A stretch of DNA of 32,106 nt from Acidobacteriaceae bacterium (GTDB lineage Bacteria; Acidobacteriota; Terriglobia; Bryobacterales; Bryobacteraceae): contig JAFATG010000293.1 of assembly GCA_019244055.1 (NCBI GenBank), forward strand, positions 1 through 32,106, written 5' to 3'. The notes beneath the pieces were generated by a model, which saw only the letters and a list, made by a program, of their open reading frames with translations, had not been told where the DNA came from and did no database searches. Both the position numbers and the translations under genes were made by a program. This document shows positions 7,984 through 29,553 of the stretch, piece by piece. How positions within the stretch are numbered: position 1 is the stretch's first letter; each line of letters begins with the position of its first letter.

Positions 7984-7990
7984 TGTACTG

Positions 7991-8430
7991 GCTGCGCGAT
8001 CGGGCAATCGCTGGACCGGCTCGCTTGCGGGCAGGTCGAGAGGAAAGTCCGGTCTTCCCAGGGCAGCATGCCGGTTAACGGCCGGGGGCTTGTGCCTACA
8101 GTGGGGTGTACGTCTCGACACGAGGCGCGGCCCACCCAAGCGCAGGCTACGGATAGTGCCACAGAAAATATACCGCCCGCTGGATTCCTGGCAGGTAAGG
8201 GTGAAAAGGTGCGGTAAGAGCGCACCGCGATTCGAGTAATCGGATTGGCAGGGAAAACCCCATGCGAAGCAAGACCAAATAGGGGAGCAGGAGTGGCCCG
8301 CTCCGTTACGACTTCCGGGTAGGTCGCTGGAGCCGCTCAGTAATGAGCGGTCTAGACGAATGGTTGCCGCCCGCCTTTTTGGTCTTCACCTCAGAGACGG
8401 GTACAGAAACCGGCTTATAGATCGCGCAGC
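7991..8430 (+). ncRNA. rnpB: RNase P RNA, bacterial class A
   Basis: Catalytic RNA of RNase P, which removes 5' leaders from pre-tRNAs. The ends are set by a perfect 11-bp P1 helix, GCTGCGCGATC (7991-8001) with GATCGCGCAGC (8420-8430). Universally conserved blocks appear in order: GAGAGGAAAGTCCGG at 8038-8052, ACAGAAA at 8161-8167, GGTAAGGGTGAAAAGG leading into a GTGCGGTAAGAGCGCACC hairpin at about 8192-8224, AGACGAATGG near 8352, and the 3' signature ACAGAAACCGGCTTAT at 8403-8418. About 440 nt is at the long end of class A RNAs. No hairpin-plus-T-run terminator follows at once; a decayed gene starts ~20 bases downstream. Confidence 0.96.
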
Positions 8431-8450
8431 TTTATGATTCTCCTACCACC

Positions 8451-8633
8451 GTCCTCGCGCATCAACAGCCGATGATCCTCGAGGGAGTCGAAGATCCGCT
8501 CGGCAACGAAACGCTTTATTCGACTGTCCATGGCGCCGGGCGCGCGATGGGGCGCATGGAAGCGAAAGGGAAGTACAGCAAGGCGGGGCACTTTCGATCA
8601 TTCCCGATGTCTGACATAACACCTCCGAATTAG
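8451..8633 (+). pseudogene. Fragment of an RtcB-type RNA ligase gene
   Basis: The frame from 8451 to the TAG at 8631-8633 reads ILEGVEDPLGNETLYSTV followed by HGAGRAMGRMEAKGK. This matches the RtcB region around the invariant HGAGR motif, whose histidine (codon 8529-8531 here) is the guanylylated residue of RtcB RNA ligases. Only about 50 residues of homology remain. The N-terminal ~300 residues with the metal site are absent, there is no start codon in a proper context, and the frame closes after unrelated sequence (SFPMSDITPPN). It is a remnant of a gene that may once have followed rnpB. Identification rests on motif memory, but the match is long and specific. Confidence 0.8.
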
Positions 8634-8675
8634 GTTGACGCCGCAAATGATCTACTTACCAGAAATTCCGGTGCC

Positions 8676-15457: not shown

Positions 15458-17032
15458 CTAACGAACCAACTTCTGCGGTAACGCGAAGGCATACAACACT
15501 CCGTGCGCTCCGACGACCACGTATTGGCGGCCGTCCAGCTCATACGTAATTGGGGGCGCTTGAGCCGGTCCGCCACCATAGGCGTGCCATAAGGTCTGGC
15601 CCGTTTCCGCATCGAGCGCGAGAATGTTGCCGTGCACATCGGCCGAAAAGACCAAGCCCCCTGCCGTGCTTACAACTCCGGCCCAATCCCAGCCTTGGCC
15701 CAGTTCGTGCACCCATTTGCTCTTGCCTGTTTGGTAATCGATGGCTCGCAGAGAGCAATGCGACGACACGGTCAGATCGCGTCCACCGAATCCTTCCGGT
15801 TTCCCCGTGCTGAACGCGTAATACAGACTAAACGAATCGTGCGAGTCGACGTAGAGCAAGCCCGTTTCAGGATTGAAGCTCGGAGACATCCAGTTCGTGG
15901 CACCGATGGCATCCGGCTCGACCAGCGTACCCGCTGCGGTCGGGTATTTCTCGCGCTTACCGACAGGACGACCTATACTATCGACGCCCGAGGTCCAGTT
16001 GATCTGCTCATAGGGAGTCGAGGATAGAGCTTTGCCATTCGTACGGTCCAGCACGAAGAGATACCCGTTGCGCGATGCCTGAAGCAGGAGCTTGCGCCTC
16101 TGTCCGTGAAAATCGCCGTCCACGAGAACCGGCGTTTGAACCGCATCCCAATCGTGGACGTCGTGCGGCGACGCTTGAAAATACCAGACGAGTTTTCCGG
16201 TGTCAGGATTCAGAGCAACGATCGAGCAGGTGAAAAGATTGTCGCCTGGGCGCGTGGAACCGTTTAGAACCGGATTCGGATTCGCCGTTCCCCAATAGAG
16301 AAGATTCAGTTCCGGATCATAGGTACCCGTGACCCACGTCATGCCTCCGCCATGCTGCATCGCGTCGGTATTGGCCGGCCAGGTGTCTGATCCAGGCTGT
16401 CCTGGCTTTGGCAACGCGTCCCATTTCCACTGCAGTTTTCCCGTATCGGCATCGAAGCAATCGATGAATCCATGCAGATCGTTAAAATCTCCCGAAACGC
16501 CTGCTAAGACGTGATTGCGAATTACCAGTGGCGCCATAGTCGCCCAATAACCGAGCTTCACGTCGGCTAGTACCACGTCCCACTGCACTTCACCCGTTCG
16601 GGCATCCAGACAGAGCAGGTGCGCGTCTGGCGTTTCAAAGTACAGCTTCTCCTTATACATGCCAAGGCCGCGCTGCCCAATGTGCAAGCCCTCATTTTGG
16701 TGATACCGATAATGCCAGACCTGCTGACCCGTTCGTGCATCCACTGCCCAGACATCATCAGGCTCGGTGAAATACAACGTGCCATTCACCAGCAGCGGAG
16801 TAGACTTCAGTCCTGGCCCGGTACTTACATCTGTTTGAAAGGCCCATGCCATCGCAAGAAATTCGACATTAGTCTTATTTATCTGCCGGAGAGAACTGAA
16901 CCGCTTACCTGAGTAATCGCCGTTATAGGAAGGCCAACTGCTGTTGGGAGGATTTAGAATCGCATTCGGATCGAGTCCTTGCGCAGAAGCGGCAAACGCG
17001 CTGAGCAGAAAGAGACTAAAGACTCGGATCAT
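15458..17032 (-). CDS. PQQ-dependent alcohol/sugar dehydrogenase, secreted
   Basis: 524 residues with a signal peptide (MIRVFSLFLLSAFAASAQG). An eight-bladed quinoprotein propeller follows; blade motifs such as DARTGQQVW, DARTGEVQW, DADTGKLQW, NPDTGKLVW and DAETGQTLW are plain, and WPSYNGDYSGKRFSSLRQIN is the usual entry of methanol/ethanol-type PQQ dehydrogenases. It oxidises an alcohol or sugar in the periplasm and passes electrons to cytochrome c. The family's fused C-terminal heme domain is absent, but a diheme cytochrome gene lies directly upstream and overlaps by four bases (ATGA), so the pair probably acts together. Last gene of a five-gene minus-strand operon. Substrate unknown. Confidence 0.87.
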   Translation of the reverse strand: MIRVFSLFLLSAFAASAQGLDPNAILNPPNSSWPSYNGDYSGKRFSSLRQINKTNVEFLAMAWAFQTDVSTGPGLKSTPLLVNGTLYFTEPDDVWAVDARTGQQVWHYRYHQNEGLHIGQRGLGMYKEKLYFETPDAHLLCLDARTGEVQWDVVLADVKLGYWATMAPLVIRNHVLAGVSGDFNDLHGFIDCFDADTGKLQWKWDALPKPGQPGSDTWPANTDAMQHGGGMTWVTGTYDPELNLLYWGTANPNPVLNGSTRPGDNLFTCSIVALNPDTGKLVWYFQASPHDVHDWDAVQTPVLVDGDFHGQRRKLLLQASRNGYLFVLDRTNGKALSSTPYEQINWTSGVDSIGRPVGKREKYPTAAGTLVEPDAIGATNWMSPSFNPETGLLYVDSHDSFSLYYAFSTGKPEGFGGRDLTVSSHCSLRAIDYQTGKSKWVHELGQGWDWAGVVSTAGGLVFSADVHGNILALDAETGQTLWHAYGGGPAQAPPITYELDGRQYVVVGAHGVLYAFALPQKLVR

Positions 17033-17796
17033 TTAAGCGTCTCCAGATACGCGAACAAGTCATGAATATTCTGGTCCGTGTAGGTGTGCAGAAGGCTTTC
17101 GTGCTCGGCTAGCGGATCACGAATCTTCACTTGCACGCTATTCCGTTTCCAGGTGTGCGTCCACCGGTTCTTATCGCGAAGCGTCACCGTAAACTCGTCG
17201 GCATAGACCTGCTCGCCTTCAATCCTTTTGCCGGAACTGTCCTCGACGGTAACGACAGGCTTAGCGCCGGACGGAAACGCGATCCGGGTCTGCAAATCAA
17301 ATGGCTTGTACTTCGATGCGATATGGGCCAGATCGCCGGTCACAGAATGACACGAGCTGCATTTGCCAGCTCCGTAGAAATATGTCTTCCCCTGTTCGGC
17401 ATTTCCGACCAGCAGCTTTTCAAGCGGATATTCTCTCGGAATCCGTTGCGCAACTGATGCGGCAGTCTTCGCTTCGGCATGCAGGAATTGCACGATGTTG
17501 CTGATATCGGCGTCGGGGAGCTGAAATGCCGGCATGCCCTTTTCTGGCCGTCCATTGCGGATAACCGGCCCAATCAGATTTCCATTCACATCGCGATTGA
17601 CAAGCGGCGAGCGAAGCAGATCGGGTCCACTGGCGCCGCGCGCATCGGGACCATGACAGAACCCGCAGGTCTGCTGAAACTGCGCCTTGCCGGCGGTTAC
17701 GGTAGCGCTCCCCTGTCCTTGCTGGATATCGTCCGGCTCCTGCGCGAGCAGCGCCGCGGGAATTAGGCTCAACAGGATCCCGCTGATGAAAAACAT
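17029..17796 (-). CDS. Diheme c-type cytochrome, electron acceptor for the PQQ dehydrogenase
   Basis: 255 residues with a signal peptide (to about AALLAQ). Two heme c sites are present: C44GFCH48 with a likely axial Met88 (KGMPAF), and C146SSCH150. The first domain is a standard cytochrome c. The region after the second heme (~155-240) contains an unusual beta-rich insert before HDLFAYLETLK closes the helix of the second heme domain. The start overlaps the preceding gene by 28 bases and has AAGGGGA upstream; the stop overlaps the PQQ dehydrogenase start, so translation is likely coupled. It probably carries electrons from the dehydrogenase to a terminal oxidase. Confidence 0.87.
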   Translation of the reverse strand: MFFISGILLSLIPAALLAQEPDDIQQGQGSATVTAGKAQFQQTCGFCHGPDARGASGPDLLRSPLVNRDVNGNLIGPVIRNGRPEKGMPAFQLPDADISNIVQFLHAEAKTAASVAQRIPREYPLEKLLVGNAEQGKTYFYGAGKCSSCHSVTGDLAHIASKYKPFDLQTRIAFPSGAKPVVTVEDSSGKRIEGEQVYADEFTVTLRDKNRWTHTWKRNSVQVKIRDPLAEHESLLHTYTDQNIHDLFAYLETLK

Positions 17797-18620
17797 TGAT
17801 CAGCAATCCCCTTCAGAATCAGCGACTGCTCCCACCGGTCGCTCTCTTCTTTTCCTTGGAATGTTCGCGCATAATAGATCTCCGGCCCGAGCAGCTCCGG
17901 CGTGAAGCAGATCCAGTCGCCCGGCTTGGCGTTCCGCAAGAATCCTCGAAACGAAGCCGTCCATAGTTGGCGAAAATGGTCGACGTAAGGCGCGAGCTGA
18001 TCGCGCTCCGAACAAACGGCGATTTGGATGCAGCCCGGGCTTGCGATGCGCCCATGAAGGAACCGCACTCGTTCCAAGACCGGCGTAATGAAGGCAAACT
18101 TCTGTTCAAAACCGCCGTATACCATTTCCTGCCCTGCATACCAATGCGAGAAATCGCCATTGAACCGCATTTCGGGAAAGCGCTCGATAAACTGCACAGT
18201 GCGCCACAGATCCTGGCACAGGGTCGCGCGATGCGTCTCGATGTAGAGAGGAATTTTCGAGCGAGCCGACGCGTCTAGAATGCTCTCGATTAAACGTCCC
18301 GCTACATCGTCGTCTTCAAGACCCCAACCAACATGTAAGGTGGCGCACTCGTAACCATCTCCAGCGGTGCGCTCCGTCAAAGAATACGCATCTTCCGGTA
18401 GATTCACCCGGCCGCTGGCAGCGAAACCCATCTTCAGATCGCGGCAGGCGGCCAGTTGCTCGCGCGTTCCAAGAGTGGCGAACTGAACGCCAGTGAATCC
18501 CGCCTCCGCCAAACTCGCAAGCTTTTCCGTGAATGCGCCCTTTGGACCCGCCGAGTCTGCGGGCAGCGAATCAAGCGCCATCAAGTTCATGTAGCAGCGA
18601 AGCTGCGGCTCGCCGCTCAT
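17769..18620 (-). CDS. Xylose-isomerase-like TIM-barrel protein
   Basis: 283 residues from ATG 18620, whose ATGA overlaps the stop of the dioxygenase gene; a longer frame upstream lies wholly inside that gene and is rejected. The sequence follows the AP-endonuclease-2/sugar-isomerase barrel: EAGFTGVQFATL (strand 1-2), YIETHRAT (a metal-ligand Glu), MRFNGDFSHW (Asp/His), and late HGRIASPG and FTPELLGP. Reaction unknown. It differs clearly from the other isomerase-like protein of the operon, so the pathway may need two successive isomer or epimer steps. Confidence 0.72.
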   Translation of the reverse strand: MSGEPQLRCYMNLMALDSLPADSAGPKGAFTEKLASLAEAGFTGVQFATLGTREQLAACRDLKMGFAASGRVNLPEDAYSLTERTAGDGYECATLHVGWGLEDDDVAGRLIESILDASARSKIPLYIETHRATLCQDLWRTVQFIERFPEMRFNGDFSHWYAGQEMVYGGFEQKFAFITPVLERVRFLHGRIASPGCIQIAVCSERDQLAPYVDHFRQLWTASFRGFLRNAKPGDWICFTPELLGPEIYYARTFQGKEESDRWEQSLILKGIADQCFSSAGSC

Positions 18621-19477
18621 GAAGCGGCGGTGTGGGTATCTGTCTTGAGACTCCTGGCACTCTGATCCTTGGCATCTTCCAACCACGCGACGTCTGCCTT
18701 CGAATCGGCGAAGCGCCGCAGACCGGCTTCCCGGATCGCAGAATCCGGAACTTTATGAAGTGGCGTGTAGCGAGGATGATGCGCCTCTTTATACGGATCG
18801 TTGCGAGCCGCGTTGTAGCAGCAGATCATCGCCCACCGCGGCTTATCCGAGCGGTTTTGGTCTGACCGGTGCAGAAGATTGGAGTGGAAGAAGAGCACAT
18901 CACCAGGGTCCATCTCGACGTAAACGAGCTCCAACCGGTTCTCCGCCTCACGCACCCGTTCGAGATCGGCGCCGGCCTGATCGCCCGTTAGAATATGATC
19001 GATACGACCCATCAGGTGGGAGCCTTTAAGCACCTGCATGCAGCCGTTCTCCCGCGTCGCGGGATCCACTGCTATGAAGGCGCTCGTCAGCAGCGGAAAA
19101 AGCACTCCGTTCTGATACCAATAGCCGTAATCCTGATGCCAAGCCCACGCACCGCCGACTTTCGCGTCCTTCATGATCATTTTGGAGTGATAGTGATAGA
19201 CTTCGCCGTCGAGTAACATCTCGGCGGAGTTCACGATCGTCTCGCAGCGCGCAAACATGCCATAAATCGTGTCCCCCGGATGATTCCACAGCGAGAGTCT
19301 TACAGTTCCACCCTCTCCATCACCCCTGCCGAAGGCGTGTTGATCGAGCTCGCGGTCTTCTTTCGCCGAGCGGCGCAGAAGATCGATCTCCTCCGCATCG
19401 AACATTTGACGTGCAATTACAAACCCGTCTCGCTCATATTCCTGTGAGGTCTGTTTTTTCAGCGGACCCGCGGCCAT
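18617..19477 (-). CDS. Phytanoyl-CoA dioxygenase (PhyH)-family Fe(II)/2-oxoglutarate oxygenase
   Basis: 286 residues; start ATG 19477 is preceded by AAGGAG. The iron-binding facial triad is visible: His114 and Asp116 in WAWHQDYGYW, and His203 in LLHRSDQN. Arg214 in DKPRWAM is the likely 2-oxoglutarate carboxylate anchor. PhyH-family enzymes hydroxylate small molecules using O2 and 2-oxoglutarate. In bacteria many act on substrates other than phytanoyl-CoA, and next to isomerases and dehydrogenases a sugar-like or hydroxy-acid substrate is plausible. Second gene of the minus-strand operon, 14 bases after the first. Confidence 0.85.
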   Translation of the reverse strand: MAAGPLKKQTSQEYERDGFVIARQMFDAEEIDLLRRSAKEDRELDQHAFGRGDGEGGTVRLSLWNHPGDTIYGMFARCETIVNSAEMLLDGEVYHYHSKMIMKDAKVGGAWAWHQDYGYWYQNGVLFPLLTSAFIAVDPATRENGCMQVLKGSHLMGRIDHILTGDQAGADLERVREAENRLELVYVEMDPGDVLFFHSNLLHRSDQNRSDKPRWAMICCYNAARNDPYKEAHHPRYTPLHKVPDSAIREAGLRRFADSKADVAWLEDAKDQSARSLKTDTHTAAS

Positions 19478-19491
19478 AAAACTTCTCCTTC

Positions 19492-20313
19492 CTAAGAACG
19501 AATTCCTACTCCATCCATTAGACGGCTGGTCGATTGATACGCTTCCTTTACCCAGTCGACGATTTTGCCAGGCTCCGGGGAATATTCGAGTTCGATACTG
19601 ATCGTGCCATTAAAACCGGAATCGGCGAGAGCCCGGAGGTAAGGCGGAAAATCCACCACGCCGCGCCCGGGCGGAAGATCCCCGTGCTTCTTGCCGTCGC
19701 AATCTGACAAATGCACGTGGGCGATGCGTCCGCGCAGCGCGGTGATCCGGTCTGGTGGATCCTTGGCGAGTGCCAGATGCGAGACGTCGATGTTGGCTTT
19801 GACGTTCGGACGTCCCACGTCTTTCAGGAAACGATCCATGTTGGCAACGTTATTCACGATGGACAGATGAAAGGGCTCGATCTCCACGGCAATTTCCAGC
19901 CCCAATTCACCGGCATAGGCGCCGAGCTCCCGAACGCCTTCCACGGCCCATTTCCACTGATCCTCAGGCGCAATCACTTCCTGGTTCCAGATATACTCGC
20001 CGACCACCAGCAGCAGATTCTTTCCTCGCAGATCGTAGGCAAGGTCGAGGTAGCGCTTGGCACGGTCGATGTGAAAGCCCCGTACCGGCCCATTAAAATC
20101 CGCAATCCCTAGCGCGCAGCAAACCGTAGAAACCACCGGCAAATCGAACTTGGCGCAGCTTTCCCGGATTGTTCTGAGCTCCTGTGGTGTGGTTTCGAGC
20201 GGGTCGGCAAAGATATCGATCGTGTCGAAACCGATCTCTTTGGTAAGCTGAATACCGCTCGCCGTATCGACCGAGGTGCCCAGCCAGGCGGAGTTGATAA
20301 GCCCAAGTTTCAT
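19492..20313 (-). CDS. Sugar phosphate isomerase/epimerase-like protein
   Basis: 273 residues; MKLGLINSAW begins the first barrel strand. Likely metal ligands are Glu146 (VEIEPFH), Asp176 (NIDVSHL), His201 (HVHLSD) and Glu241 (SIELEYS), the E-D-H-E set of the tagatose/psicose epimerase and inosose-handling families. It is the promoter-proximal gene of the minus-strand operon, reading away from the oxidoreductase at 20410 across a 96-bp regulatory gap. It probably isomerises or epimerises a free keto-sugar or inosose. Substrate not determinable. Confidence 0.8.
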   Translation of the reverse strand: MKLGLINSAWLGTSVDTASGIQLTKEIGFDTIDIFADPLETTPQELRTIRESCAKFDLPVVSTVCCALGIADFNGPVRGFHIDRAKRYLDLAYDLRGKNLLLVVGEYIWNQEVIAPEDQWKWAVEGVRELGAYAGELGLEIAVEIEPFHLSIVNNVANMDRFLKDVGRPNVKANIDVSHLALAKDPPDRITALRGRIAHVHLSDCDGKKHGDLPPGRGVVDFPPYLRALADSGFNGTISIELEYSPEPGKIVDWVKEAYQSTSRLMDGVGIRS

Positions 20314-20352
20314 TCGAGAGTGTCAGGTTAGCGCGAAGCCGAAAGCGATAAT

Positions 20353-20380
20353 ATCATAGACTTTTCGTTGACATCGTGAA
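20353..20380 (-). promoter_or_regulatory. Candidate promoter of the minus-strand operon
   Basis: On the minus strand TTCACG (20380-20375) and TATGAT (20358-20353) are separated by 16 bases, with four of six consensus matches in the -35 and five of six in the -10. The inverted repeat at 20377-20398 covers part of the -35, so a bound repressor would block this promoter. Confidence 0.4.
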
Positions 20381-20395
20381 CGTTTAGTGTAACGT
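20368..20395 (+). promoter_or_regulatory. Candidate promoter of the plus-strand operon
   Basis: A perfect TTGACA lies at 20368-20373 and a weak TAACGT at 20390-20395 (16-base spacer). Transcription would start near 20402, leaving a leader of only a few bases before GTG 20410, so the -10 choice is uncertain. The inverted repeat fills the spacer and the -10. Confidence 0.4.
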
Positions 20396-20398
20396 TCA
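20377..20398. promoter_or_regulatory. Perfect inverted repeat, probable LacI-type operator
   Basis: TGAACGTT, six bases, AACGTTCA: a perfect 8-bp dyad in the divergent gap. Each arm contains AACGTT with the central CpG typical of LacI-family operators. A LacI-type regulator is the second gene of the plus operon, so it most likely controls both operons and itself from this site. Confidence 0.6.
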
Positions 20399-20409
20399 TA
20401 GGAGTGTCG

Positions 20410-21531
20410 GTGACTGTCAATCTCAATCTCGATCACATTCCTCCGAAGCCGGCGCGCAGCGACTTCGGCATCGGCGCCGTCGGGGCCGGCTTCATCATGC
20501 GGGACGTGCAGCTTAAGGCTTATGCCAATGCCGGCTACAACGTTGTCGGGATCACGTCGAGAACTCCCGAGATTGCCCGCGAGGTGGCGGATCTCCATGC
20601 GATCCCCAAACTTTACGACACGCTCCCGGACATGCTGCGCGATCCTGAGATTCAGATTCTCGACATCGCCGTTCCCCCCGACCGGCAATCAGACATTGTC
20701 CGGCAGGCGGTCGATCTCGGTGTTCACCTCAAGGGCATTCTGGCGCAGAAGCCGCTGGCCGTGAACTATGAGGATGCGGAACAGATCGTTCAACTGTGCC
20801 GCCGGCGCGGCCTCCCCCTCGCGGTCAATCAGAACATGCGCTACGATCAGTCGATTCGGGCATTAAAAACTGTTTTGGCTCGCGGCTATCTCGGAAACCC
20901 GGTACTGGCGACGATAGAGATGCGCGCGGTTCCACACTGGCAGGCATGGCTGCGGGATTACCAGCGGCTCACTCTGCTGAATATGAGTGTTCATCATCTG
21001 GACACGTTCCGTTACCTGTTCGGGGAGCCCGAATCGATTTTTGTGAGCGCGCGCAAAGACCCCAGGACACGCTTTGCGCACGAGGACGGGATTTGCCTGT
21101 ACATTCTCGAATACGCGGACGGCTTGCGTGCGAGCGGCTGGGACGACGTTTGGGCGGGACCGCGAACCGACCAGGACGATCTCAAGCGATATATCAAATG
21201 GAGGGTGGAAGGCACGGACGGCCTGGCGGAGGGGACAATCGGCTGGCCGCAGTATCCGAATCGCGCGCCCAGCACTCTGACGTTCACGACGAACGCCGAA
21301 CCGAATGTGTGGTTCACGCCGAGATGGAACGAAGTATGGTTCCCGGATGCCTTTCAAGGACCTATGACCGAACTGATGAACGCCATTGCGACGCACTCGG
21401 AGCCGCTCACTGACGGAGCGGACAACCTAAAGACTATGGCTGTCATCGAAGCCGGGTATCGCTCACTGCGGGAGCGGCGATCGGTCGCGATTGCTGAAAT
21501 CCTTCAGGCCGCCGGCGCGTTTGCGAGCTGA
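20410..21531 (+). CDS. Gfo/Idh/MocA-family NAD(P)-dependent oxidoreductase
   Basis: Start GTG 20410 is favoured because AGGAG (20400-20404) sits five bases upstream; GTG 20404 would overlap that site. The protein is 373 residues. A Rossmann domain starts with GIGAVGAGFI (GxGxxG), with QKP in place of the usual EKP motif (Lys114) before the C-terminal domain. MSVHHLDTFRYLFGEPE carries the Asp/His pair of the active site. The family oxidises sugar hydroxyls, inositols or related substrates; ThuB of rhizobial trehalose/sucrose use is a member. Eight bases separate it from the regulator gene. Cytoplasmic; substrate unknown. Confidence 0.85.
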   Translation: MTVNLNLDHIPPKPARSDFGIGAVGAGFIMRDVQLKAYANAGYNVVGITSRTPEIAREVADLHAIPKLYDTLPDMLRDPEIQILDIAVPPDRQSDIVRQAVDLGVHLKGILAQKPLAVNYEDAEQIVQLCRRRGLPLAVNQNMRYDQSIRALKTVLARGYLGNPVLATIEMRAVPHWQAWLRDYQRLTLLNMSVHHLDTFRYLFGEPESIFVSARKDPRTRFAHEDGICLYILEYADGLRASGWDDVWAGPRTDQDDLKRYIKWRVEGTDGLAEGTIGWPQYPNRAPSTLTFTTNAEPNVWFTPRWNEVWFPDAFQGPMTELMNAIATHSEPLTDGADNLKTMAVIEAGYRSLRERRSVAIAEILQAAGAFAS

Positions 21532-21539
21532 TCATCAGC

Positions 21540-22604
21540 ATGCCTCGTCGATCTTCCTCTCCGACTATGCGCGAGATCGCCACTCGCGCCAATGTCTCCA
21601 TCGGGACTGTTTCGCGCGTCCTGAATCGTCATGACGATGTCGATACCGAACTGCGGGAACGCGTGGAGAGCATCGCCCGCAAGGTCGGTTACAGGTTGAG
21701 CGAACGAACCCGGACCGCCGTCCACACCAAGTCCCGCATCATCGGCTTGATTCTGTTGAATGATTTTGGGCTGAGTTCCGCTCAGTCTCTGCTGCTTGTC
21801 GGCGTTGAAGAATACTGCTCGCGGTCCGGCTATTATCTGCTGTTCGCCCGGCACCAGCACCCTCCCAACATTCCTGTCGCAAGTGCCGCGGTGCCCACTG
21901 TGGTGCAAACGCCCGGCCTCGCTGATTGCGTTATCGTCGCCGGCAATGTCCATTCGAACATTTTGAAGACCTTCGAGCGATACGGGCTGAACTACGTCCT
22001 ATTGAAGAACCACCTGATGGATGCGGTGGAGCGCACCACACATGGCAGCTTCGTCGAATATGACGATCTTGGCGGCTGTTATCAAGCGACCCGCTACATG
22101 GCGCAGCTTGGGCACAAGCATATCTGGTACATCGGAGATGCTTCACGCCCCTGGCACCGAAACCGCCTGAAGGGCTACGCGGAGGCAATGGCCGAACTCG
22201 ATCTTGAGCCGCATGTGCACACCATCGCGCTCTCGGACGATGAATTCGAGCACGGCCAGGCAGCCGTTTTTCACATCCTTGAACAGGGATGGCCCATTAC
22301 CGCTATCTTGGCCGCCTCCGATCAGCTCGCGTTTGGCGCCCGCGAAGGACTAAGACAGCACCGGCGCGAGGTACCGAAAGACGTGAGTCTCATCGGCTTC
22401 GAGATGGAAGCGGCACGCGGACATGCATCCAATTTGACGAATGTCTCGGTTGACATGGTCGAGGTGGGACGCCAGCTTGCGAAAGCAGCTATCGCACAGA
22501 TCGGAAACAGTAAGAAAACTGCCGAGGATGTAGTCGTTCCCGCGGTTCTCGTGAAACGCAGTACCTGCCGCCCCTTGCGCAGAGAAGAACACATGATGCT
22601 TTAG
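21540..22604 (+). CDS. LacI-family transcriptional regulator
   Basis: 354 residues. The N-terminal helix-turn-helix and hinge (TMREIATRANVSIGTVSRVL, residues ~10-60) are classic LacI. The effector domain is periplasmic-binding-protein-like (ADCVIVAGNVHSN, AAILAASDQLAFGAREGL-like region, DVSLIGFEME). It lies eight bases after the oxidoreductase and 28 before the ThuA gene, inside the operon it probably controls through the operator at 20377-20398. The effector would be a sugar or pathway intermediate. Confidence 0.92.
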   Translation: MPRRSSSPTMREIATRANVSIGTVSRVLNRHDDVDTELRERVESIARKVGYRLSERTRTAVHTKSRIIGLILLNDFGLSSAQSLLLVGVEEYCSRSGYYLLFARHQHPPNIPVASAAVPTVVQTPGLADCVIVAGNVHSNILKTFERYGLNYVLLKNHLMDAVERTTHGSFVEYDDLGGCYQATRYMAQLGHKHIWYIGDASRPWHRNRLKGYAEAMAELDLEPHVHTIALSDDEFEHGQAAVFHILEQGWPITAILAASDQLAFGAREGLRQHRREVPKDVSLIGFEMEAARGHASNLTNVSVDMVEVGRQLAKAAIAQIGNSKKTAEDVVVPAVLVKRSTCRPLRREEHMML

Positions 22605-22632
22605 CCTGGAATTTTCATCGGGTTTTCCAGCA

Positions 22633-23658
22633 ATGCGTTTGCGCTCTGTTCTGCTTTTTGTCCTTACTGCCTTCTGCGTGAGCTGGTCCCTCCCCGGGGC
22701 AGGCGTTACTTACGGAGGTACGCATGGCCCCGGCCTCGGCAAGCACATCGTACTGATCGCCGGCGATGATGCCGAATATCACTCCGAAGAAGCGCTTCCT
22801 GCCCTGGCGAAAATTCTCGCAGTTCGGCACGGTTTTACCTGCACCGTTCTCTTCTCTATCAATCCCGATGATGGGACCATTGATCCCCGCGAGAGGCGCA
22901 ATATCCCCGGATTGGAGGCACTCAAAACGGCGGATCTCGTGATCCTGTTTATTCGCTGGCGAGACTTGCCCGATGACCAGATGAAACACTTCATCGATTA
23001 CGTTGGATCTGGCCGGCCGATCATGTCGCTCCGCACCGGCACCCACCCATTTTGGTTTAAGACCAGCAAAACGTACGAAAAATGGTCGTGGAACAGCAAG
23101 GTCCCAGGCTGGGAGGGAGGATTCGGACGAAAAGTTTTAGGCGAAACATGGATTGCTCACCATGGCAAGCACGGACAGCAAAGTACACGTGCCCTCTTTG
23201 CGCCCGACGCGGGAAGCAGCCCCATTTTGCGCGGTATTCGCGATGGTGAAATCTGGACGTCTACCGACACTTATGAAGTTCGTTTGCCGCTTCCGCCCAC
23301 ATGCAAGCCCTTACTGCTGGGCCAGGTACTCTCCTGGGTCGGCCCCGACGCCGACCCGGTCCCCGGTGCCGTCAATGATCCGATGATGCCTGTTGCCTGG
23401 ACAAACACGTTCACCACCGAAACCGGCAAGGCGGCGCGCGTCTTCACAACCACGATGGGAGCGGCGGATGGATTGGAAAATGAAGCGCTCCGCCGGTTGC
23501 TTGTTAATGCCGTTTACTGGGCGGTAGGAATCGAGTCAAAAATTCCGGCGAAAGCCGATGTCGCTCTGGTGGGCGTCTACAGCCCTCATTCCTTCCTTTC
23601 GGAGGTCTACGCCGCCGGTGTCAAGCCATCCGATCTGGCCCTGGAAAGTAAACCGTAA
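22633..23658 (+). CDS. Secreted ThuA-like domain protein
   Basis: 341 residues with a signal peptide (MRLRSVLLFVLTAFCVSWSLPGAG). The glutamine-amidotransferase-like ThuA fold follows: GKHIVLIAGDDAEYHSEEA, then ADLVILFIRWRDLPDDQMKH, FIDYVGSGRPIMSLRTGTHPF and late MPVAWTNTFTTETGKAARVF. ThuA proteins are tied to trehalose and related disaccharide use through 3-keto-sugar intermediates, by knowledge of rhizobial ThuAB. A ThuB-like partner family (Gfo/Idh/MocA) is two genes upstream. Its export suggests that it acts on a periplasmic sugar or glycan. Its stop and the next start share a base (TAATG). Confidence 0.83.
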   Translation: MRLRSVLLFVLTAFCVSWSLPGAGVTYGGTHGPGLGKHIVLIAGDDAEYHSEEALPALAKILAVRHGFTCTVLFSINPDDGTIDPRERRNIPGLEALKTADLVILFIRWRDLPDDQMKHFIDYVGSGRPIMSLRTGTHPFWFKTSKTYEKWSWNSKVPGWEGGFGRKVLGETWIAHHGKHGQQSTRALFAPDAGSSPILRGIRDGEIWTSTDTYEVRLPLPPTCKPLLLGQVLSWVGPDADPVPGAVNDPMMPVAWTNTFTTETGKAARVFTTTMGAADGLENEALRRLLVNAVYWAVGIESKIPAKADVALVGVYSPHSFLSEVYAAGVKPSDLALESKP

Positions 23659-25754
23659 TGTTCCGTTTCGCGCGTGTAATTGGGTTGCTTGCATGCGCTT
23701 TCGTAACCGCAACCGCTCATGATCCTGTATCGGATGCAATTGCGGCGTTGCAGCGCGGTGATCTCAGCTCCGCTGAACGAATCCTCCATTCATATATCGA
23801 AGACCATCCCGCGGATGCTGCGGCGCTCGAGGTTCTCGGTGTCGTTCTCGATCAAGAGAAGAAATACAGTGAAGCCGATCCTGTTTATCGCCGGGCGCTG
23901 GGCCTGGGGCGTTCGCCTGGATTACTGAACAATTACGGCAACCACCTCCTTTCAACCGGAAAAGTAAAAGAGGCGCGGCAAGCATTTCTCGCGGTGCTTG
24001 CGCTGGATCCCACTCACGCCAATGCAACGATTCAGTTGGCGCGCATTGCCCTCGAGCAGAAGTCTCCCGCCCAAGCAATCTCCTATCTAGATCGACTCCC
24101 GGCAGAGCAGCGCGACAGCCAGGATGTGGCCTTCCTCCGAATGCAGGCGGATTATGCGGTGGGGAGAATGAGCGAGGCGGATGCGATGCTGAAACGACTT
24201 TCGGCCAACGATGATCCTGTACAGAGTTTCACATTGGGCAAGGCGGTGGCAGCGGCGGGCCAATACGACAAAGCGGAGGTGTTTTTCGAGCGGACCGTGC
24301 GAGCAGAGCCGGACAATTTTGCCGCTCTTTATGATCTCGGTCTCGCGGCCGGGCATGCAGGTCATAACGAACGCGCGCGTGACGCTCTGCAGAAGGCTCT
24401 GGAAAAACAACCGGACAATCCGAACGTGCTCTATGATCTGGCCGCCACGGATGTAATTCTCCACGATCGAGTGACCGCGCTCGCCTTGCTCGCCCGCGCC
24501 CGCCACTTAGCACCCAACCGGCCCGAAATTGACTTATTGCTCGCGCGAACCGCAGGCGATCTCGGTTATTTCGGCGATGCAGTCGAGACCTGGGACGCAT
24601 ATCTGAAACTGATTCCCAATGACGAGATTGCACGCCGGGAGCGCGCATTCGCACAGAGCGCGACAGATGAGAACGTCGAGCCTGCTTTAGCCGAACTACA
24701 AAGCTTCGTTCGCCACCATCCCACAGATGCTAACGGTTATTACGAGCTCGCCATGGCTGAAAGCCCAAGCAATCCAGATCAAGCGCTGAAGGATATTGAG
24801 CGCGCTCTCGCGCTAAAGCCAAATCTCATCCCTGCGCACGTTACTCGCGGCCTTCTGCGCTATCGGCAAGGCAAACCGGAAGCCGCTCTACGCGATTTCG
24901 AGTTTGCCGCGCAACATGAACCTACAAACGCGGTCATCCTCGATCGACTCGGCGAAACATATCTCGCTCTTGGCCGGCCCGGAGATGCAGTTCCTGTTCT
25001 GCAAAGGGCCGAAGCCTCGGATTCCAAGAACCCTAACGTGCTCCTCCATCTCGGACGAGCCCTGTCCAAAACGGGTCGTCTGGAGGAAGCCGCTGCGGCT
25101 TTTGCGCGTTATCGCGACTTGGGCGGCGCAAACGCCGCGTTGCCCCATCCGCCCGGTCTGATCGATTTCCTAAGCCTGCCTCCTGAGGAGCAGCAGGCGC
25201 GATACCGCGCAGGGGTCGAACGTACTGTGGCAAGCAATCCGGATAGCGCGGCCGCTGAGGTCGAGTACCTAGGGCTCCTACTCAAAGACGGCAAGGCCGA
25301 TGAAGCCCAAGCTGTTGCCCGGAAGCTCATTTCGCTCAAGCCGGATGCTGCTCTTCTCGGCAAGGCTGCTCTTGTGCTCATCCGAAGCCAGCGCGCGGCC
25401 GAAGCCCTGCAGCTTCTCGATCAGGCCTCGCAAGGCGCGATGAGCGATCCACAACTGGCCACCATCAAAGCCATTGCGACCGACCTAACCGGCCAGAATT
25501 CCGACACGCAATTCAAAGAAATCGAGACGCGCTGGCCGAAGTGGGATGCTGGCTGGATCGCGCACGCGCTGGTTTTGCTATCGCGCGGACAGCGTGGGGC
25601 AGCGCAGCACGATTTCGATAACGCACTCGCGCTTGACACGCGCAATCACGCGGCCGATTATCTGGCGGCATATCTGAGCCCCTCGAAAAAAGACCAGCCC
25701 CAAGTTGTTTCCCCGGAAGTTTTGCTGGCCGGTCTTCCCTTACTATTTCCCTGA
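23658..25754 (+). CDS. Exported TPR-repeat protein
   Basis: 698 residues: a short hydrophobic N-terminus (MFRFARVIGLLACAFVTATA, probable signal peptide) and then TPR repeats almost throughout. Examples are LLNNYGNHLLSTGKVKEARQ, FAALYDLGLAAGHAGHNERA and NAVILDRLGETYLALGRPGD. The repeats break around 480-520 (HPPGLIDFLSLPPEEQQARY). No catalytic domain is seen. TPR proteins hold protein complexes; the overlapping start with the ThuA gene suggests that the two products are made in step and may interact. Specific partner unknown. Confidence 0.82.
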   Translation: MFRFARVIGLLACAFVTATAHDPVSDAIAALQRGDLSSAERILHSYIEDHPADAAALEVLGVVLDQEKKYSEADPVYRRALGLGRSPGLLNNYGNHLLSTGKVKEARQAFLAVLALDPTHANATIQLARIALEQKSPAQAISYLDRLPAEQRDSQDVAFLRMQADYAVGRMSEADAMLKRLSANDDPVQSFTLGKAVAAAGQYDKAEVFFERTVRAEPDNFAALYDLGLAAGHAGHNERARDALQKALEKQPDNPNVLYDLAATDVILHDRVTALALLARARHLAPNRPEIDLLLARTAGDLGYFGDAVETWDAYLKLIPNDEIARRERAFAQSATDENVEPALAELQSFVRHHPTDANGYYELAMAESPSNPDQALKDIERALALKPNLIPAHVTRGLLRYRQGKPEAALRDFEFAAQHEPTNAVILDRLGETYLALGRPGDAVPVLQRAEASDSKNPNVLLHLGRALSKTGRLEEAAAAFARYRDLGGANAALPHPPGLIDFLSLPPEEQQARYRAGVERTVASNPDSAAAEVEYLGLLLKDGKADEAQAVARKLISLKPDAALLGKAALVLIRSQRAAEALQLLDQASQGAMSDPQLATIKAIATDLTGQNSDTQFKEIETRWPKWDAGWIAHALVLLSRGQRGAAQHDFDNALALDTRNHAADYLAAYLSPSKKDQPQVVSPEVLLAGLPLLFP

Positions 25755-25758
25755 GCCC

Positions 25759-25810
25759 CATGAAACTTACATGAAATTTATTTGAATGTTTCATGTGAGT
25801 TTGATATGTT
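25759..25810 (+). promoter_or_regulatory. Promoter with CATGAAA direct and inverted repeats before the TonB receptor
   Basis: TTGAAT (25782-25787) and TATGTT (25805-25810) with a 17-base spacer form a moderate promoter for the receptor gene. CATGAAA occurs at 25759 and 25770, exactly 11 bp (one helical turn) apart, and again inverted as TTTCATG at 25789-25795. The repeats lie upstream of and across the promoter, as expected for a regulator-binding site. The regulator is unknown. Confidence 0.45.
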
Positions 25811-25848
25811 GTCTCCAACGAGTCGAGGTCTTTCTCCAAGGAGTCCAT

Positions 25849-28800
25849 ATGCGCGTTTCGCGCTTATTGTTTGTTGCCGCTCTCACGCTCAGTTTTGTCC
25901 AATTTTGTTTTACTCAGACGTTCACATCTTCCATCACCGGCACGGTGGCCGATCCATCGGGCGCGGCGGTTGGGAACGCCAAAATTGAGCTAAAGAACAT
26001 GGGAACAAACGATGTTCACGACCTCACGTCCCTGAACGATGGTTCCTATCAGTTCAATAACCTGCAGCCTGGAAGTTATCAGATCACCGTGACAGCTCCG
26101 GGCTTCACGACTTATGTCCAGTCGAACTTGATTCTCCGTGCACAGGTCAACAGCACAGTGAATATTTCGCTCCAGCTCGGGAACACACAGCAAAAGGTCG
26201 AAGTCGCCGGTTCGGCAGTCCTGGTTGACACGGAGACCGCTAATAGCTCGGCTATACTGGACAGCCATCTTCTCAGTACACTGCCAAATGGGACGCGAAA
26301 TCCGCTGAATTTCGTGTTGGCTGTCGCGGGCACGACCACAGGACCTGCGGGGCAGACCGTGTCATCAAACGGCACCACCTTGGATCAGAACTCTAGTAGC
26401 TTCGGGCTGAACGGCGGCCGGACCGGCGAGGAATCCATCTTAATCGACGGTGCTCCCTCTACCGCAGTGGATTGGGGCGGACTCTTCGTAGCCCCGCTCC
26501 AAGATTCCGTGCAGGAGCAACAGATCGTTACTAATACGTATGATGCGCAGTACGAACGGTCCGGATCAGGTATCGTCACGCTCATCACCAAGGGCGGGAC
26601 GAACACATTTCACGGGGAGATCTACGATTATCTGCAAAATTCGGCTCTCAATGCGAATTCCTGGTCGAATAACAAGAACGGCGCGCCGAAAGGCCAATTC
26701 AAAAGGAACCAGTTCGGCGGAAATATCAGCGGTCCTATCCTGAAGCGCGCCAACCTGTTTTTCTTCGGTGGATACGAGGGTCTGCGCCAGTCAGCTACAG
26801 AGAGTAGCGGACTGGAAACAGTCCCTACGCAAGCAGAGCGCAATGGAGACTTCTCCGGAGCGCTGAATGCGGACGGCACGCCGAATCTCATTTACAACCC
26901 ATTCACAAGCGTGCCGCTTCCAGACGGCACCTATACGCGTCAAGCGTTCGCCGGCAATGTTATCCCTCAGAACCTGATCAACCCAGTCGGCGCCAAGATG
27001 ATGAGCCTGTACCCACTGCCCAACCGTCCTGGCCAGGGGCCGAACCAAATTAATAATTTCTTTGCACAGGGTGCGGGTAAGAACACGAACGACAAGATGG
27101 ATACGCGCTTTGACTGGGAACAGAGTTCGACGCACAGAGTGTTCGTGCGCTGGTCGGACCGGTTTCGGGAGGACGTGATTCCTCCCTGCTTCTTCTGTAC
27201 AGGGGGAGATTCCGGCGTGAACGAAAACGATCACGGGTTTCAGGTCGTTTTGAATGACACCGTTACGCCAAGCCCCACCTGGGTGATTAACTCATTTGTG
27301 AGCTACAGCCGGTGGCAAGAGCCGCACATAGCGCAAACGTTCGGTACGGCCGACGCAGCGACCATTGGACTCTCGCCATTGCTGTTTCAGGCGCCGATCT
27401 TGCCGGGAATTTCCGTTGAGAACTATGCAACCCTGGGTATCACTTTCGGCGGTGGATTCGAAACGTACACGCGGGACGCGGCTACAATCGGAATCAATCT
27501 TACCAAGCAGTTTTCAAAGCACACGCTCAAATTCGGTGCCAACTTCGATGACCAGCTAATCAATAACGCCCAGGCGTCTAATGGCGTAAACACGGGATCT
27601 GCGGCCTTCGACTTTGGAACCGCCCTGACCTCTTGCGATCCCAACCCGAACGGGGGCCCATGCATTGCGAGCAACAGCGGATCTAGTGTGTCTGGTAACG
27701 CACTTGCCTCCATGTTATTAGGCACTGGGAGCGGCGGCGGGCAGTCCTTCAATATCGAACCCGCAATGAGCCTGCACACCTACGGGTCGTATATTCAGGA
27801 TCAGTGGCGCGTCACGCCACGCCTGACCGTGAACGTAGGCGTGCGATATGAGAACCAGCGCCCCGCCACAGAGCGTTTCAACCGGCTCGAATACTTCGAC
27901 CCGAACGTAGTAAATCCCATCAGTTCCCAGATCGGATTTAACGTACTCGGTGGATTCGACTACGCCCAGACAAACGGCAATGGCCGGTTCGCATGGCCGC
28001 CCAATGATCACGATTTCGCGCCTCGCGCCGGAGTCGCGTTCAAGCTAACGGATAAGCTGGTTGCTCGCGCGGGTGCTGGCATTTACTTCCTGCCCCCTTC
28101 GGCCATGATCACTTTCGATAATCCGGGCCAATTCATCGGATTCAGCTCTTCGACGGCATATAACGGGACGACACAAAACGGATATGTTCCGTTGAATTTG
28201 GTCAGTAATCCTTTCCCCAATGGGATCAACCAGCCTACGGGCAGCTCGCAAGGCTTGCTCACGCTCGTTGGCGACGGCCAGAGTCAGATCTGGCCGAAAG
28301 CGCCACATCCGACGCCCTACACCGAACAGTGGAGCTTCGATCTGCAATACCAAGTCACTCCGCATTCGGTGTTTCAAATCGGTTATCTGGGAAACCGCGG
28401 ACGCAAGCTGCTGTACGGCAATCCCAACATCAATGCCGATCAGTTGCCGGACCAGTACCTGAGTCTGCAATCACAACTCGATCAGCAAGTACCGAACCCG
28501 TTCTACGGCATTCTTGATCAAACCACCCCCCTGGGATCACAAAAGACCATAGCGTATAACCAATTGCTACGCCCATTCCCTGAGTTTACGGACATTACGT
28601 GGAATCGTTCTCTACCTGGCGCGAGATCCTCTTACAACGCACTTGATGCAAAGTACAATTACAGTTTCGGTGCCGGCTTAAGCGTGCTCGCGACTTATCG
28701 GTGGTCAAAGGCCCTGGATAACGGCCCGGAGGATTTCATCGGCTGGGGCACTGGCAATCAATGGCGCGACTCCTACAACACCATGCTCGATTACAACATC

Positions 28801-29385
28801 AGCACGCACGATGTTCCGCAGAGCTTCGCGACCGCCTTGGTATACGACCTGCCGTATGGAAGTGGCAAACATTGGGGCAATAGCGCTCCCGGCATCGTAA
28901 AAGAGGTGTTGGGAAACTGGCAGGTTTCGAGCGTCATCCGGCTGGCCAGCGGATTACCACTTCCCACGGGAGTCTTCTGGAGCTATAGCAATCCACTTGG
29001 TCCATACGGTTTTCCGGGACCGCAGCTGGCAGACCTAGTCGGAAACCCTGTGCCGTCGACTCGAACTCCCAACAACTGGATCAATGCCGCCGCTTATACC
29101 GCGCCACCAAACAACTGGACGCTCGGGAATGCACCTCAGCGCATGACACAGCTTCGCGAGCGTGCTGCCCGCAACTTTGACCTCTCGGTCGCTAAGAACT
29201 TCGGAAGCGAACGATACCAGGCCTGGTTCCGCGCCGAGTTCCTGAACGCTTTCAATTACGCTCAATACAATCTGGCCCCGTTCAACACTTTCCAGCTATG
29301 CGTTACATGCGGAGATTTTGGAGATCTGAACTGGACCGAAAACAGTCCACGGACCATCCAGTTGAGCCTGAAGCTCGCTTTCTAA
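25849..29385 (+). CDS. Oar-like TonB-dependent receptor with carboxypeptidase-regulatory-like domain
   Basis: 1178 residues from ATG 25849, set by AAGGAG at 25838-25843; an upstream in-frame ATG at 25786 lies in the promoter and is rejected. A signal peptide (to ~FCFTQ) is followed by a carboxypeptidase-regulatory-like beta-sandwich (FTSSITGTVADPSGAAVGNA to ~110). A TonB plug-like region (ESILIDGAPSTAVDWGG, QQIVTNTYDAQYERSGSGIV) precedes a long beta-barrel ending in the outer-membrane pattern LSLKLAF with C-terminal Phe. Acidobacteriota carry many such Oar-type receptors, thought to import or bind carbohydrates and peptides. A role in importing the substrate of the neighbouring sugar island is attractive but unproven. 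Confidence 0.9.
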   Translation: MRVSRLLFVAALTLSFVQFCFTQTFTSSITGTVADPSGAAVGNAKIELKNMGTNDVHDLTSLNDGSYQFNNLQPGSYQITVTAPGFTTYVQSNLILRAQVNSTVNISLQLGNTQQKVEVAGSAVLVDTETANSSAILDSHLLSTLPNGTRNPLNFVLAVAGTTTGPAGQTVSSNGTTLDQNSSSFGLNGGRTGEESILIDGAPSTAVDWGGLFVAPLQDSVQEQQIVTNTYDAQYERSGSGIVTLITKGGTNTFHGEIYDYLQNSALNANSWSNNKNGAPKGQFKRNQFGGNISGPILKRANLFFFGGYEGLRQSATESSGLETVPTQAERNGDFSGALNADGTPNLIYNPFTSVPLPDGTYTRQAFAGNVIPQNLINPVGAKMMSLYPLPNRPGQGPNQINNFFAQGAGKNTNDKMDTRFDWEQSSTHRVFVRWSDRFREDVIPPCFFCTGGDSGVNENDHGFQVVLNDTVTPSPTWVINSFVSYSRWQEPHIAQTFGTADAATIGLSPLLFQAPILPGISVENYATLGITFGGGFETYTRDAATIGINLTKQFSKHTLKFGANFDDQLINNAQASNGVNTGSAAFDFGTALTSCDPNPNGGPCIASNSGSSVSGNALASMLLGTGSGGGQSFNIEPAMSLHTYGSYIQDQWRVTPRLTVNVGVRYENQRPATERFNRLEYFDPNVVNPISSQIGFNVLGGFDYAQTNGNGRFAWPPNDHDFAPRAGVAFKLTDKLVARAGAGIYFLPPSAMITFDNPGQFIGFSSSTAYNGTTQNGYVPLNLVSNPFPNGINQPTGSSQGLLTLVGDGQSQIWPKAPHPTPYTEQWSFDLQYQVTPHSVFQIGYLGNRGRKLLYGNPNINADQLPDQYLSLQSQLDQQVPNPFYGILDQTTPLGSQKTIAYNQLLRPFPEFTDITWNRSLPGARSSYNALDAKYNYSFGAGLSVLATYRWSKALDNGPEDFIGWGTGNQWRDSYNTMLDYNISTHDVPQSFATALVYDLPYGSGKHWGNSAPGIVKEVLGNWQVSSVIRLASGLPLPTGVFWSYSNPLGPYGFPGPQLADLVGNPVPSTRTPNNWINAAAYTAPPNNWTLGNAPQRMTQLRERAARNFDLSVAKNFGSERYQAWFRAEFLNAFNYAQYNLAPFNTFQLCVTCGDFGDLNWTENSPRTIQLSLKLAF

Positions 29386-29445: not shown

Positions 29446-29553
29446 CCCTCGTTCACGTCTTTCTTGCCCACTAAATGAGCAGCATCGAGGCGACTCCTCT
29501 TTTTCATTGACTAGTGAATTTCAATCGGCTAATCTGTGGGCCGAGGATTACCC

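Follow-up and report, generated by a model that had tools for sequence, protein, structure and literature searches.

Levoglucosan is broken down by oxidation, elimination, and hydration, and PMC7676230 assigns these steps to one dehydrogenase and two different 'sugar phosphate isomerases'. In E. coli, the ycj cluster consists of the dehydrogenases YcjS and YcjQ, the 3-keto-glucoside epimerase YcjR, the LacI-type regulator YcjW, and the porin OmpG, according to PMC11543891. PMC10628242 describes the deglycosylation of C- and O-glycosides (DgpA, CGD/CGE, OGE) as an oxidation at C3 followed by the action of a TIM-barrel beta-eliminase. Here, we describe a gene island with related components in a 32,106-nucleotide stretch of DNA (the window; contig JAFATG010000293.1 of assembly GCA_019244055.1) from an Acidobacteriaceae bacterium of the family Bryobacteraceae. 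The window is contig C191 of a draft genome (G000; 6.2 Mb in 372 contigs), and G and L numbers denote the genomes and loci of the analysis. One arm of the island encodes two different TIM-barrel proteins (TIM1 and TIM2), a PhyH-type Fe(II)/2-oxoglutarate (2OG) dioxygenase (PhyH), a c-type cytochrome, and a quinoprotein-fold protein. The divergent arm encodes a Gfo/Idh/MocA oxidoreductase (GFO), a LacI-family regulator, a ThuA-domain protein, and a TPR protein, and a TonB-dependent receptor gene comes next.

The island is very probably an inducible sugar regulon. The more specific reading, that some ten genes under LacI control form a catabolic regulon by which one sugar-like compound (a glycoside, a modified sugar, or a cyclitol) is taken up and oxidatively degraded, is an even bet. 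Chemistry in which a sugar would be oxidized and then eliminated or epimerized, as suggested by analogy, falls just short of that. The regulon reading is favored because the candidate catalytic residues are intact, the folds have sugar-enzyme relatives, sugar genes occur as neighbors, and the levoglucosan and ycj systems provide precedents. The substrate, the order of the steps, and the role of the oxygenase are what we infer on these grounds. All of the parts belong to known superfamilies and the logic of each has a known analogue, and the combination is new to the literature searched.

How does the island compare with the described systems? It shares with the ycj cluster, as outlined in PMC11543891, a LacI regulator, a putative sugar dehydrogenase, an epimerase-like TIM barrel, and a probable route for outer-membrane uptake, and the TIM1 model matches YcjR at a template modeling (TM) score of ~0.8 with 19% identity. 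In contrast to the ycj cluster, the island lacks phosphorylases and an ABC transporter, and has an oxygenase and a periplasmic redox pair instead. With the levoglucosan pathway (LgdA-LgdB1-LgdB2-LgdC), as set out in PMC7676230, it shares a presumed initiating dehydrogenase, two different isomerase-like proteins, and potentially the logic of oxidation, beta-elimination, and hydration. However, the island adds the 2OG dioxygenase, quinoprotein, cytochrome, ThuA protein, and TonB receptor. A further, LgdC-like dehydrogenase was not recognized in it, and GFO scored 37.6 bits against the levoglucosan-dehydrogenase equivalog (cut-off 650). With the deglycosylation systems, the island potentially shares a C3 oxidation that prepares for beta-elimination by a TIM barrel; DgpA is among the relatives of GFO and CGD is the fifth fold match of TIM2, although the latter resemblance is weak (TM 0.54, 13% identity). 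The trehalose-type ThuA/ThuB operons also place ThuA-domain and GFO proteins in one block, but the ThuA protein of the island looks exported and is inconstant in synteny. The preliminary description of the locus, made from its sequence, had recognized no named pathway in this mixture of genes. The comparison bears this out, as no equivalog of a sugar enzyme was reached and no such gene combination was found in open-access papers.

A cyclitol or inositol pathway, in which GFO would be an inositol-type dehydrogenase and TIM1 and TIM2 would serve as inosose isomerase and dehydratase, is improbable. Inositol 2-dehydrogenase is the best NCBIfam match of GFO (81.2 bits), TIM1 matches IolO (61 bits) and IolE (44.5 bits), and IolI is among the relatives of TIM1. 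However, all of these scores lie far under their cut-offs (355, 300, and 290, respectively), and no kinase, IolB-type, or IolD-type gene was recognized in the block. Membership in either the levoglucosan or the inositol pathway was rejected on the curated NCBIfam cut-offs.

The candidate catalytic residues of PhyH, TIM1, and TIM2 look intact in alignments of their homologs. TIM1 E144, D176, H201, and E241 are among the residues invariant in 18 aligned sequences from four phyla, and TIM2 E133, D161, H194, and E247 are invariant in 12; both sets are presumed to be the metal ligands typical of the family. In PhyH, H114, D116, H203, and R214 are invariant in all 15 aligned sequences, the first three presumably forming the HxD...H iron triad and R214 being the presumed 2OG-binding arginine. 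TIM1 matches the folds of ketose 3-epimerases, IolI, and YcjR at TM ~0.8, with the YcjR structure (6wn6) at rank 11 (TM 0.78/0.81) and many ketose epimerases scoring alike. TIM2 is more divergent. Its model is confident (predicted local distance difference test score, pLDDT, 89.6), but its fold neighbors are weak, with UlaE as the best Foldseek match (TM 0.58) and the C-glucosyl deglycosidase at rank 5, and a profile of the 12 TIM2 sequences gave no sequence match in the PDB at E<=0.01. The PDB profile matches of GFO include 1,5-anhydrofructose reductase, inositol dehydrogenase, and DgpA.

The PDB relatives of PhyH include leucine and ectoine hydroxylases, and hydroxylases of antibiotic pathways are also among its relatives. 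Such relatives would suit an island that, instead of being catabolic, makes or tailors a hydroxylated osmolyte or secondary metabolite. This alternative is very improbable; the LacI regulator, TonB receptor, ThuA protein, and sugar isomerase-type partners speak against it, and no glycosyltransferase, nonribosomal peptide synthetase, or polyketide synthase was recognized in the block.

Further evidence for the regulon comes from synteny. At E<=1e-30, the island PhyH was present in 16 of 60 genomes including its own. The neighborhoods of all 18 PhyH matches outside G000 were taken, several of them ended by contig ends, and ten were of the island type (L053-L058, L067-L070). A seven-gene core, LacI-GFO<>TIM1-PhyH-TIM2-cytochrome-quinoprotein, recurred in four (L054, L055, L057, L058), with parts of it in six more. 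GFO was divergent from TIM1-PhyH in seven (L053-L058, L067), and LacI lay beside GFO in six of those; in the seventh, L056, the contig stops inside GFO. The cytochrome-quinoprotein pair was seen in six (L054, L055, L057, L058, L068, L070). L058 (genome G008) kept the nine genes and the receptor, ordered as in the window. The preliminary description had made its reading depend on the two arms being syntenic in other genomes; they are, with the core recurring in Bryobacteraceae, so synteny does not refute that reading.

The arms are linked, and the ThuA, TPR, and receptor genes are more variable. ThuA was found in four of the six loci with LacI beside GFO (L053, L054 at a contig end, L058, L067), and the TPR gene in only one (L058) of the five loci where it would be visible, the L054 contig stopping inside ThuA. 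The receptor was syntenic in two (L053, L058). Thus ThuA and TPR, which the preliminary description counted among its nine genes, are present and packed in the window but look accessory by their distribution. In L067 (G004; 2420-3421), the gene after ThuA is not TPR, as in the window, but a different propeller gene of the pyrroloquinoline quinone (PQQ) type; its best NCBIfam match is the glucose-dehydrogenase-like TIGR03074.

A candidate switch lies at the divergent junction. The repeat there, TGAACGTT-N6-AACGTTCA, is perfect with 8-bp arms, and was equalled in one of 300 shuffles of the same 117-base stretch. A pattern derived from four junctions (G000, G004, G008, G010), TGAACNTTN6AANGTTCA, occurred exactly in four of 20 genomes (G000 included), only at the four source junctions and at no other site. 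Because the pattern was drawn from these matching junctions, the informative part of this result is the absence of further exact sites. A second perfect repeat with 8-bp arms, ACATGAAA-N12-TTTCATGT, precedes the receptor and occurred exactly only there across the 20 genomes; the receptor of L058 is preceded by the same architecture, TGATGAAA-N12-TTTCATCA. Both repeats of the window fit RTGAAM-N12-KTTCAY. This looser pattern had seven sites in G000 (three for the reversed control), two of them within the island, and four in G008 (two for the control), two of them at the same two places as in the window island. The junctions of G004, G010, and G011:C42 fit it as well. From these repeats, we infer that LacI may govern the receptor too. 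The regulator has the helix-turn-helix and sugar-binding domains of the LacI family (Pfam) and an inverted repeat at its candidate target promoter, and it fell short of the cut-off in each of its 17 NCBIfam model matches. The first proposal, of two arms sharing a single switch, is supported: the arms are syntenic elsewhere, and a genome-unique operator-like repeat lies at their junction. A search for short even palindromes at the junctions gave one near-match, only in L054. The sigma-70 promoter scan (7 versus a mean of 6.4) and the terminator scan (15 versus 15.1) were both at chance, so no promoter or terminator is claimed.

The junctions between genes argue for two operons. PhyH and TIM2, and likewise cytochrome and quinoprotein, overlap stop to start as ATGA; ThuA and TPR overlap as TAATG; TIM2 and cytochrome overlap by 28 nt. 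Gaps of 14 bases (TIM1-PhyH) and 8 bases (GFO-LacI) separate other neighbors. The ATG start of TIM2 at 18620 is the one that overlaps the PhyH stop, and is probably the true start, a GTG start listed at 18686 probably being spurious. By eye, signal-like N-termini were seen in the quinoprotein, cytochrome, ThuA, and TPR proteins, and none in GFO, TIM1, TIM2, and PhyH. All nine open reading frames (ORFs) of the preliminary description exist at the coordinates and strands it gave, and its domain calls agree with the Pfam assignments, TIM2 scoring under its cut-off. Its end of the island at 25754 does not hold, as the TonB-dependent receptor comes next with its own inverted repeat; the unit is probably one of ten genes spanning 15458-29385 (Table 1).

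Table 1. Genes and operator-like repeats of the island, by position in the window.
Feature	Position	Strand	Evidence
Quinoprotein-fold beta-propeller, exported, TIGR04528 'acido-empty-quinoprotein group A'	15458..17032	-	NCBIfam 783.2 bits; Pfam PQQ propeller 291.7 bits
c-type cytochrome, exported	17029..17796	-	Pfam Cytochrome_CBB3 55.8 bits; two CXXCH (CGFCH, CSSCH; by eye)
TIM2, divergent xylose-isomerase-like TIM barrel	17769..18620	-	Pfam AP_endonuc_2 20.6 bits, under cut-off 31.1
PhyH-type Fe(II)/2OG dioxygenase	18617..19477	-	Pfam PhyH 130.6 bits
TIM1, sugar 3-epimerase/IolI-like TIM barrel	19492..20313	-	Pfam AP_endonuc_2 140.3 bits
Operator candidate 1, GTGAAC-N12-GTTCAT, core TGAACGTT-N6-AACGTTCA (20377-20398)	20376..20399	.	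Divergent junction
GFO, Gfo/Idh/MocA NAD(P) oxidoreductase	20404..21531	+	Pfam 66.4 bits; no signal peptide seen by eye
LacI-family regulator	21540..22604	+	Pfam LacI 53.8 bits, Peripla_BP_3 100.7 bits
ThuA-domain protein, exported, apparently accessory	22633..23658	+	Pfam ThuA 37.9 bits, cut-off 33.4
TPR protein, exported, apparently accessory	23658..25754	+	Pfam TPR families
Operator candidate 2, ACATGAAA-N12-TTTCATGT	25769..25796	.	Precedes TonB-dependent receptor
TonB-dependent receptor, OMP_b-brl_4 type	25846..29385 (alternative start 25786, within repeat)	+	Pfam OMP_b-brl_4 647.6 bits, CarboxypepD_reg 72.9 bits

Other features of the window were also noted. The TPR protein scored 92 bits against the type III secretion chaperone model NF052415 (NCBIfam; cut-off 70), which is probably a cross-match between TPR repeats. 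An FG-GAP repeat protein is encoded at 29536-30951, ~150 bases past the receptor. At 8712-9823, a UbiD-type gene is apparently split: the ORF at 9275-9823 aligns from residue 1 onward with positions 97-206 of the profile, and an ORF in a different frame (8712-9305) overlaps its start.

Do the island genes travel together beyond the Bryobacteraceae? A PhyH profile search of a set with one genome per species gave at least 579 relatives, of which the best 80 were kept. On the same strand and within 2.5 kb of PhyH, TIM1 (>=45% identity) was present in 12 of these 80 loci, GFO in 23 (17 at >=45%), and both in nine. Among the 51 of the best 80 loci with 2.5 kb on both sides of PhyH, 19 had at least one partner, so most had none. 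By their record titles, the 12 TIM1-bearing loci, mostly from metagenome-assembled genomes, span Acidobacteriota, Planctomycetota, Verrucomicrobiota, and Bacteroidota. GFO orthologs (62-66%) also adjoin PhyH in L183 and L190. LacI was found on the same strand near PhyH in none of the best 80 loci and ThuA in one; a different, divergent LacI-family gene lies beside PhyH in L076, which is probably the same contig as L061. Sugar genes are neighbors of PhyH elsewhere too: L061 and L063 contain a GH36-like hydrolase (GH, glycoside hydrolase family), a LacI regulator, and a sugar transporter of the major facilitator superfamily (MFS), and L116 contains such a hydrolase and MFS gene. As judged from these neighborhoods, a 2OG oxygenase, a sugar TIM barrel, and GFO make up a wider cassette found in four phyla, and the quinoprotein/cytochrome arm is local. 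The gene mixture that had seemed unusual is thus less exotic than first thought, because PhyH, GFO, and TIM1 co-occur in other phyla. In L146 (Muricauda; 4625-8958), two glucose-dehydrogenase-like quinoproteins with cytochrome-like domains are encoded just upstream of PhyH, TIM1, and GFO, making this a second case in which the cassette has quinoproteins beside it.

TIM2 is rarer. Among 297 phylum-wide genomes, TIM2 was found in three and PhyH (at a stricter threshold) in two, with both only in G000. Among 150 family genomes, TIM2 was present in 11, the island PhyH in 18, and both in 10 (Fisher p 4e-10, a statistic that ignores shared ancestry). The two genes are adjacent in eight of the 10 (G000, G014, G024, G031, G393, G414, G433, G476) and apart in G363 and G424. 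TIM2 homologs also lie in what looks, from its gene content, like a pectin-degradation locus in L164 and L166. In G300 (L166), TIM2 is on the opposite strand between GH28 and GH141-type genes, with GH30- and GH31-type genes nearby, and in G340 (L164) a GH95 gene is near TIM2, again on the opposite strand. Both regions include a sugar symporter, and the GH30 and GH141 scores are only just over cut-off.

We take the GH families around TIM2 in G300 and G340 to be those that break down methylated pectin (rhamnogalacturonan II). This setting raises the alternative that the island degrades methyl sugars (ethers): the dioxygenase would oxidatively strip O-methyl or comparable groups from a sugar of plant or microbial origin, with release of formaldehyde; the freed sugar would be processed by GFO and the TIM barrels; and the quinoprotein and cytochrome would handle the released one-carbon unit or aldehyde. 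The frequent partnership of the oxygenase with sugar-type TIM barrels and GFO would fit, as would the quinoprotein fold, which is that of methanol and alcohol dehydrogenases. However, the named close PDB relatives of PhyH are amino-acid and ectoine hydroxylases, with no sugar demethylase among them; the TIM2 genes of G300 and G340 come without the island PhyH; and Pfam and NCBIfam scans recognized no formaldehyde gene in the island. This alternative is considered unlikely.

Several observations weigh against a single LacI-controlled sugar regulon. No island protein reached the NCBIfam equivalog cut-off of a named sugar enzyme. Eight of the 18 PhyH neighborhoods are without the island (L059-L066), although L062 and L063 nonetheless have TIM2 near PhyH, and L055 and L057 keep GFO and LacI with no ThuA, TPR, or receptor gene seen. 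TIM2 without PhyH occurs in G472 as well as in G300 and G340. The loci that supplied the TIM2 profile themselves lie in the island or close to PhyH, a choice that may favor co-occurrence. The exact operator core is absent from two island genomes (G003, G011) in the 20-genome scan, its one-mismatch matches in the 20 genomes are no commoner than those of the reversed control, and at seven other junctions taken singly, the best repeat was reached in 67-291 of 300 shuffles. The stretch preceding the L053 (G010) receptor is without the repeat. Finally, a cytochrome ortholog was found in none of the best 80 PhyH loci and a quinoprotein near PhyH only in L146, so that the periplasmic arm might have a function of its own. 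In other words, one promoter region might serve a cytosolic sugar cassette together with an unrelated, co-transcribed quinoprotein/cytochrome pair for electron transfer. The cytosolic genes do recur in other phyla without the island cytochrome or quinoprotein, and TIGR04528 paralogs are numerous (seven over cut-off among the G000 matches listed, including that of the window). However, in the Bryobacteraceae loci L054, L055, L057, and L058, the pair comes after TIM2 in the same order, the truncated loci L068 and L070 also contain it, and an ATGA overlap couples its two genes in the window. This two-function alternative is decidedly unlikely.

Is the quinoprotein-fold protein a PQQ dehydrogenase, as it was first called? 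It exceeds the cut-off of TIGR04528 (783.2 bits versus 650) but not that of the PQQ alcohol dehydrogenase model TIGR03075 (440.7 versus 480.05). Because TIGR04528 is ahead by 342 bits, methanol oxidation of the XoxF type is disfavored. PQQ alcohol dehydrogenases (6zcv, 1kv9, and others) belong to the same propeller family and align near full length, with R121, W233, N251, D294, D296, R321, and N380 of the window protein kept. The metal-ligand Glu and the Cys-Cys pair are both missing: Phe183 aligns with the Glu of 6zcv and 1kv9, and the Cys-Cys of 6zcv has no counterpart. We assume this Glu column to be a metal ligand and the adjacent cysteines to form a disulfide. An alignment covered 32 TIGR04528 proteins: that of the window, six orthologs, and 25 more, with a single best frame taken from each locus. 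The Glu column holds F in eight, D in 11, S in five, A in four, V in three, a gap in one, and E in none, and Cys-Cys occurs in none of the 32. D182 is invariant, D185 is present in 31, and the seven kept residues, with D294/D296 forming a DxD, are invariant in all 32. We take R121, W233, N251, D294 (the catalytic aspartate), R321, and N380 to be cofactor-site residues. In five proteins below the cut-off, the Glu column is D in four and E in one (L052), and CC occurs in L048 and L052. PMC10875860 reports that an extra aspartate is essential for lanthanide binding in XoxF. By alignment, the pocket is mostly kept, an extra aspartate of the XoxF lanthanide kind is present, and one ligand is replaced. 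Thus the fold and most cofactor-site residues agree with the first call, whereas the group assignment, the lost Glu and Cys-Cys, and the TIGR03075 score do not.

The name 'acido-empty-quinoprotein', which was not found in open-access papers, suggests, as we understand it, a host without PQQ biosynthesis. A cofactor-less quinoprotein in a host that makes no PQQ is rejected for G000, because this genome has pqqBCDE on contig C66 (L071 7108-10089), with PqqB, PqqC, and PqqE over cut-off and PqqD at 43.5 versus 46. G000 is probably able to make PQQ. Among the 60 genomes, PqqE was over cut-off in eight and TIGR04528 in 25, with both in six. The island quinoprotein was visible in seven genomes (G000, G004, G008, G010, G011, G014, G024), and PqqE was over cut-off in only two of them; G024 is 96% complete in two contigs, and gene absence from incomplete genomes is weak evidence. 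Because of this low count, the island quinoprotein does not seem to require PQQ synthesis by its own host, and scavenging is possible. The receptor as the PQQ importer PqqU is disfavored, since it is of the OMP_b-brl_4 type and PMC12124388 reports PqqU within Acidobacteria only in Vicinamibacteria.

How might the LacI-controlled regulon work? Without an inducer, LacI would repress both the divergent promoter and that of the receptor. When the inducer is present, the TonB receptor would carry the compound across the outer membrane. In the periplasm, the quinoprotein-fold protein and the two-heme cytochrome would oxidize the compound or pass on its electrons, and ThuA would assist there. In the cytosol, GFO would oxidize a ring hydroxyl to a ketone, and TIM1 and TIM2, as metal-dependent enzymes, would epimerize the keto sugar or beta-eliminate and hydrate it, as LgdB1 and LgdB2 do with levoglucosan. 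The 2OG dioxygenase would hydroxylate a C-H bond, perhaps stripping a substituent such as O-methyl; this role for the oxygenase is rather unlikely.

A broader proposal is tentative and somewhat unlikely. It holds that PhyH, the TIM barrel, and GFO constitute an unrecognized oxygen-dependent sugar pathway of Acidobacteriota, Planctomycetota, Verrucomicrobiota, and Bacteroidota, in which the dioxygenase would open a substituted sugar beyond the reach of dehydrogenase and eliminase chemistry alone. In Bryobacteraceae, the pathway would have been joined by a re-engineered quinoprotein, with D182/D185 standing in for Glu at the metal site, that would function with or without PQQ synthesis by the same genome.

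Soils are rich in Acidobacteria, and for much of the sugar metabolism of these bacteria, annotation stops at the superfamily level. The points of greatest interest are the substrate of the dioxygenase and the altered site of the quinoprotein. The island is a defined, regulator-linked, and experimentally tractable set of genes for identifying what is acted on by a 2OG dioxygenase whose gene accompanies those of sugar enzymes in several phyla. It likewise offers a clear genomic context for asking whether PQQ, a lanthanide, or neither is bound by the 'empty' quinoproteins of Acidobacteria, of which each genome has many copies.

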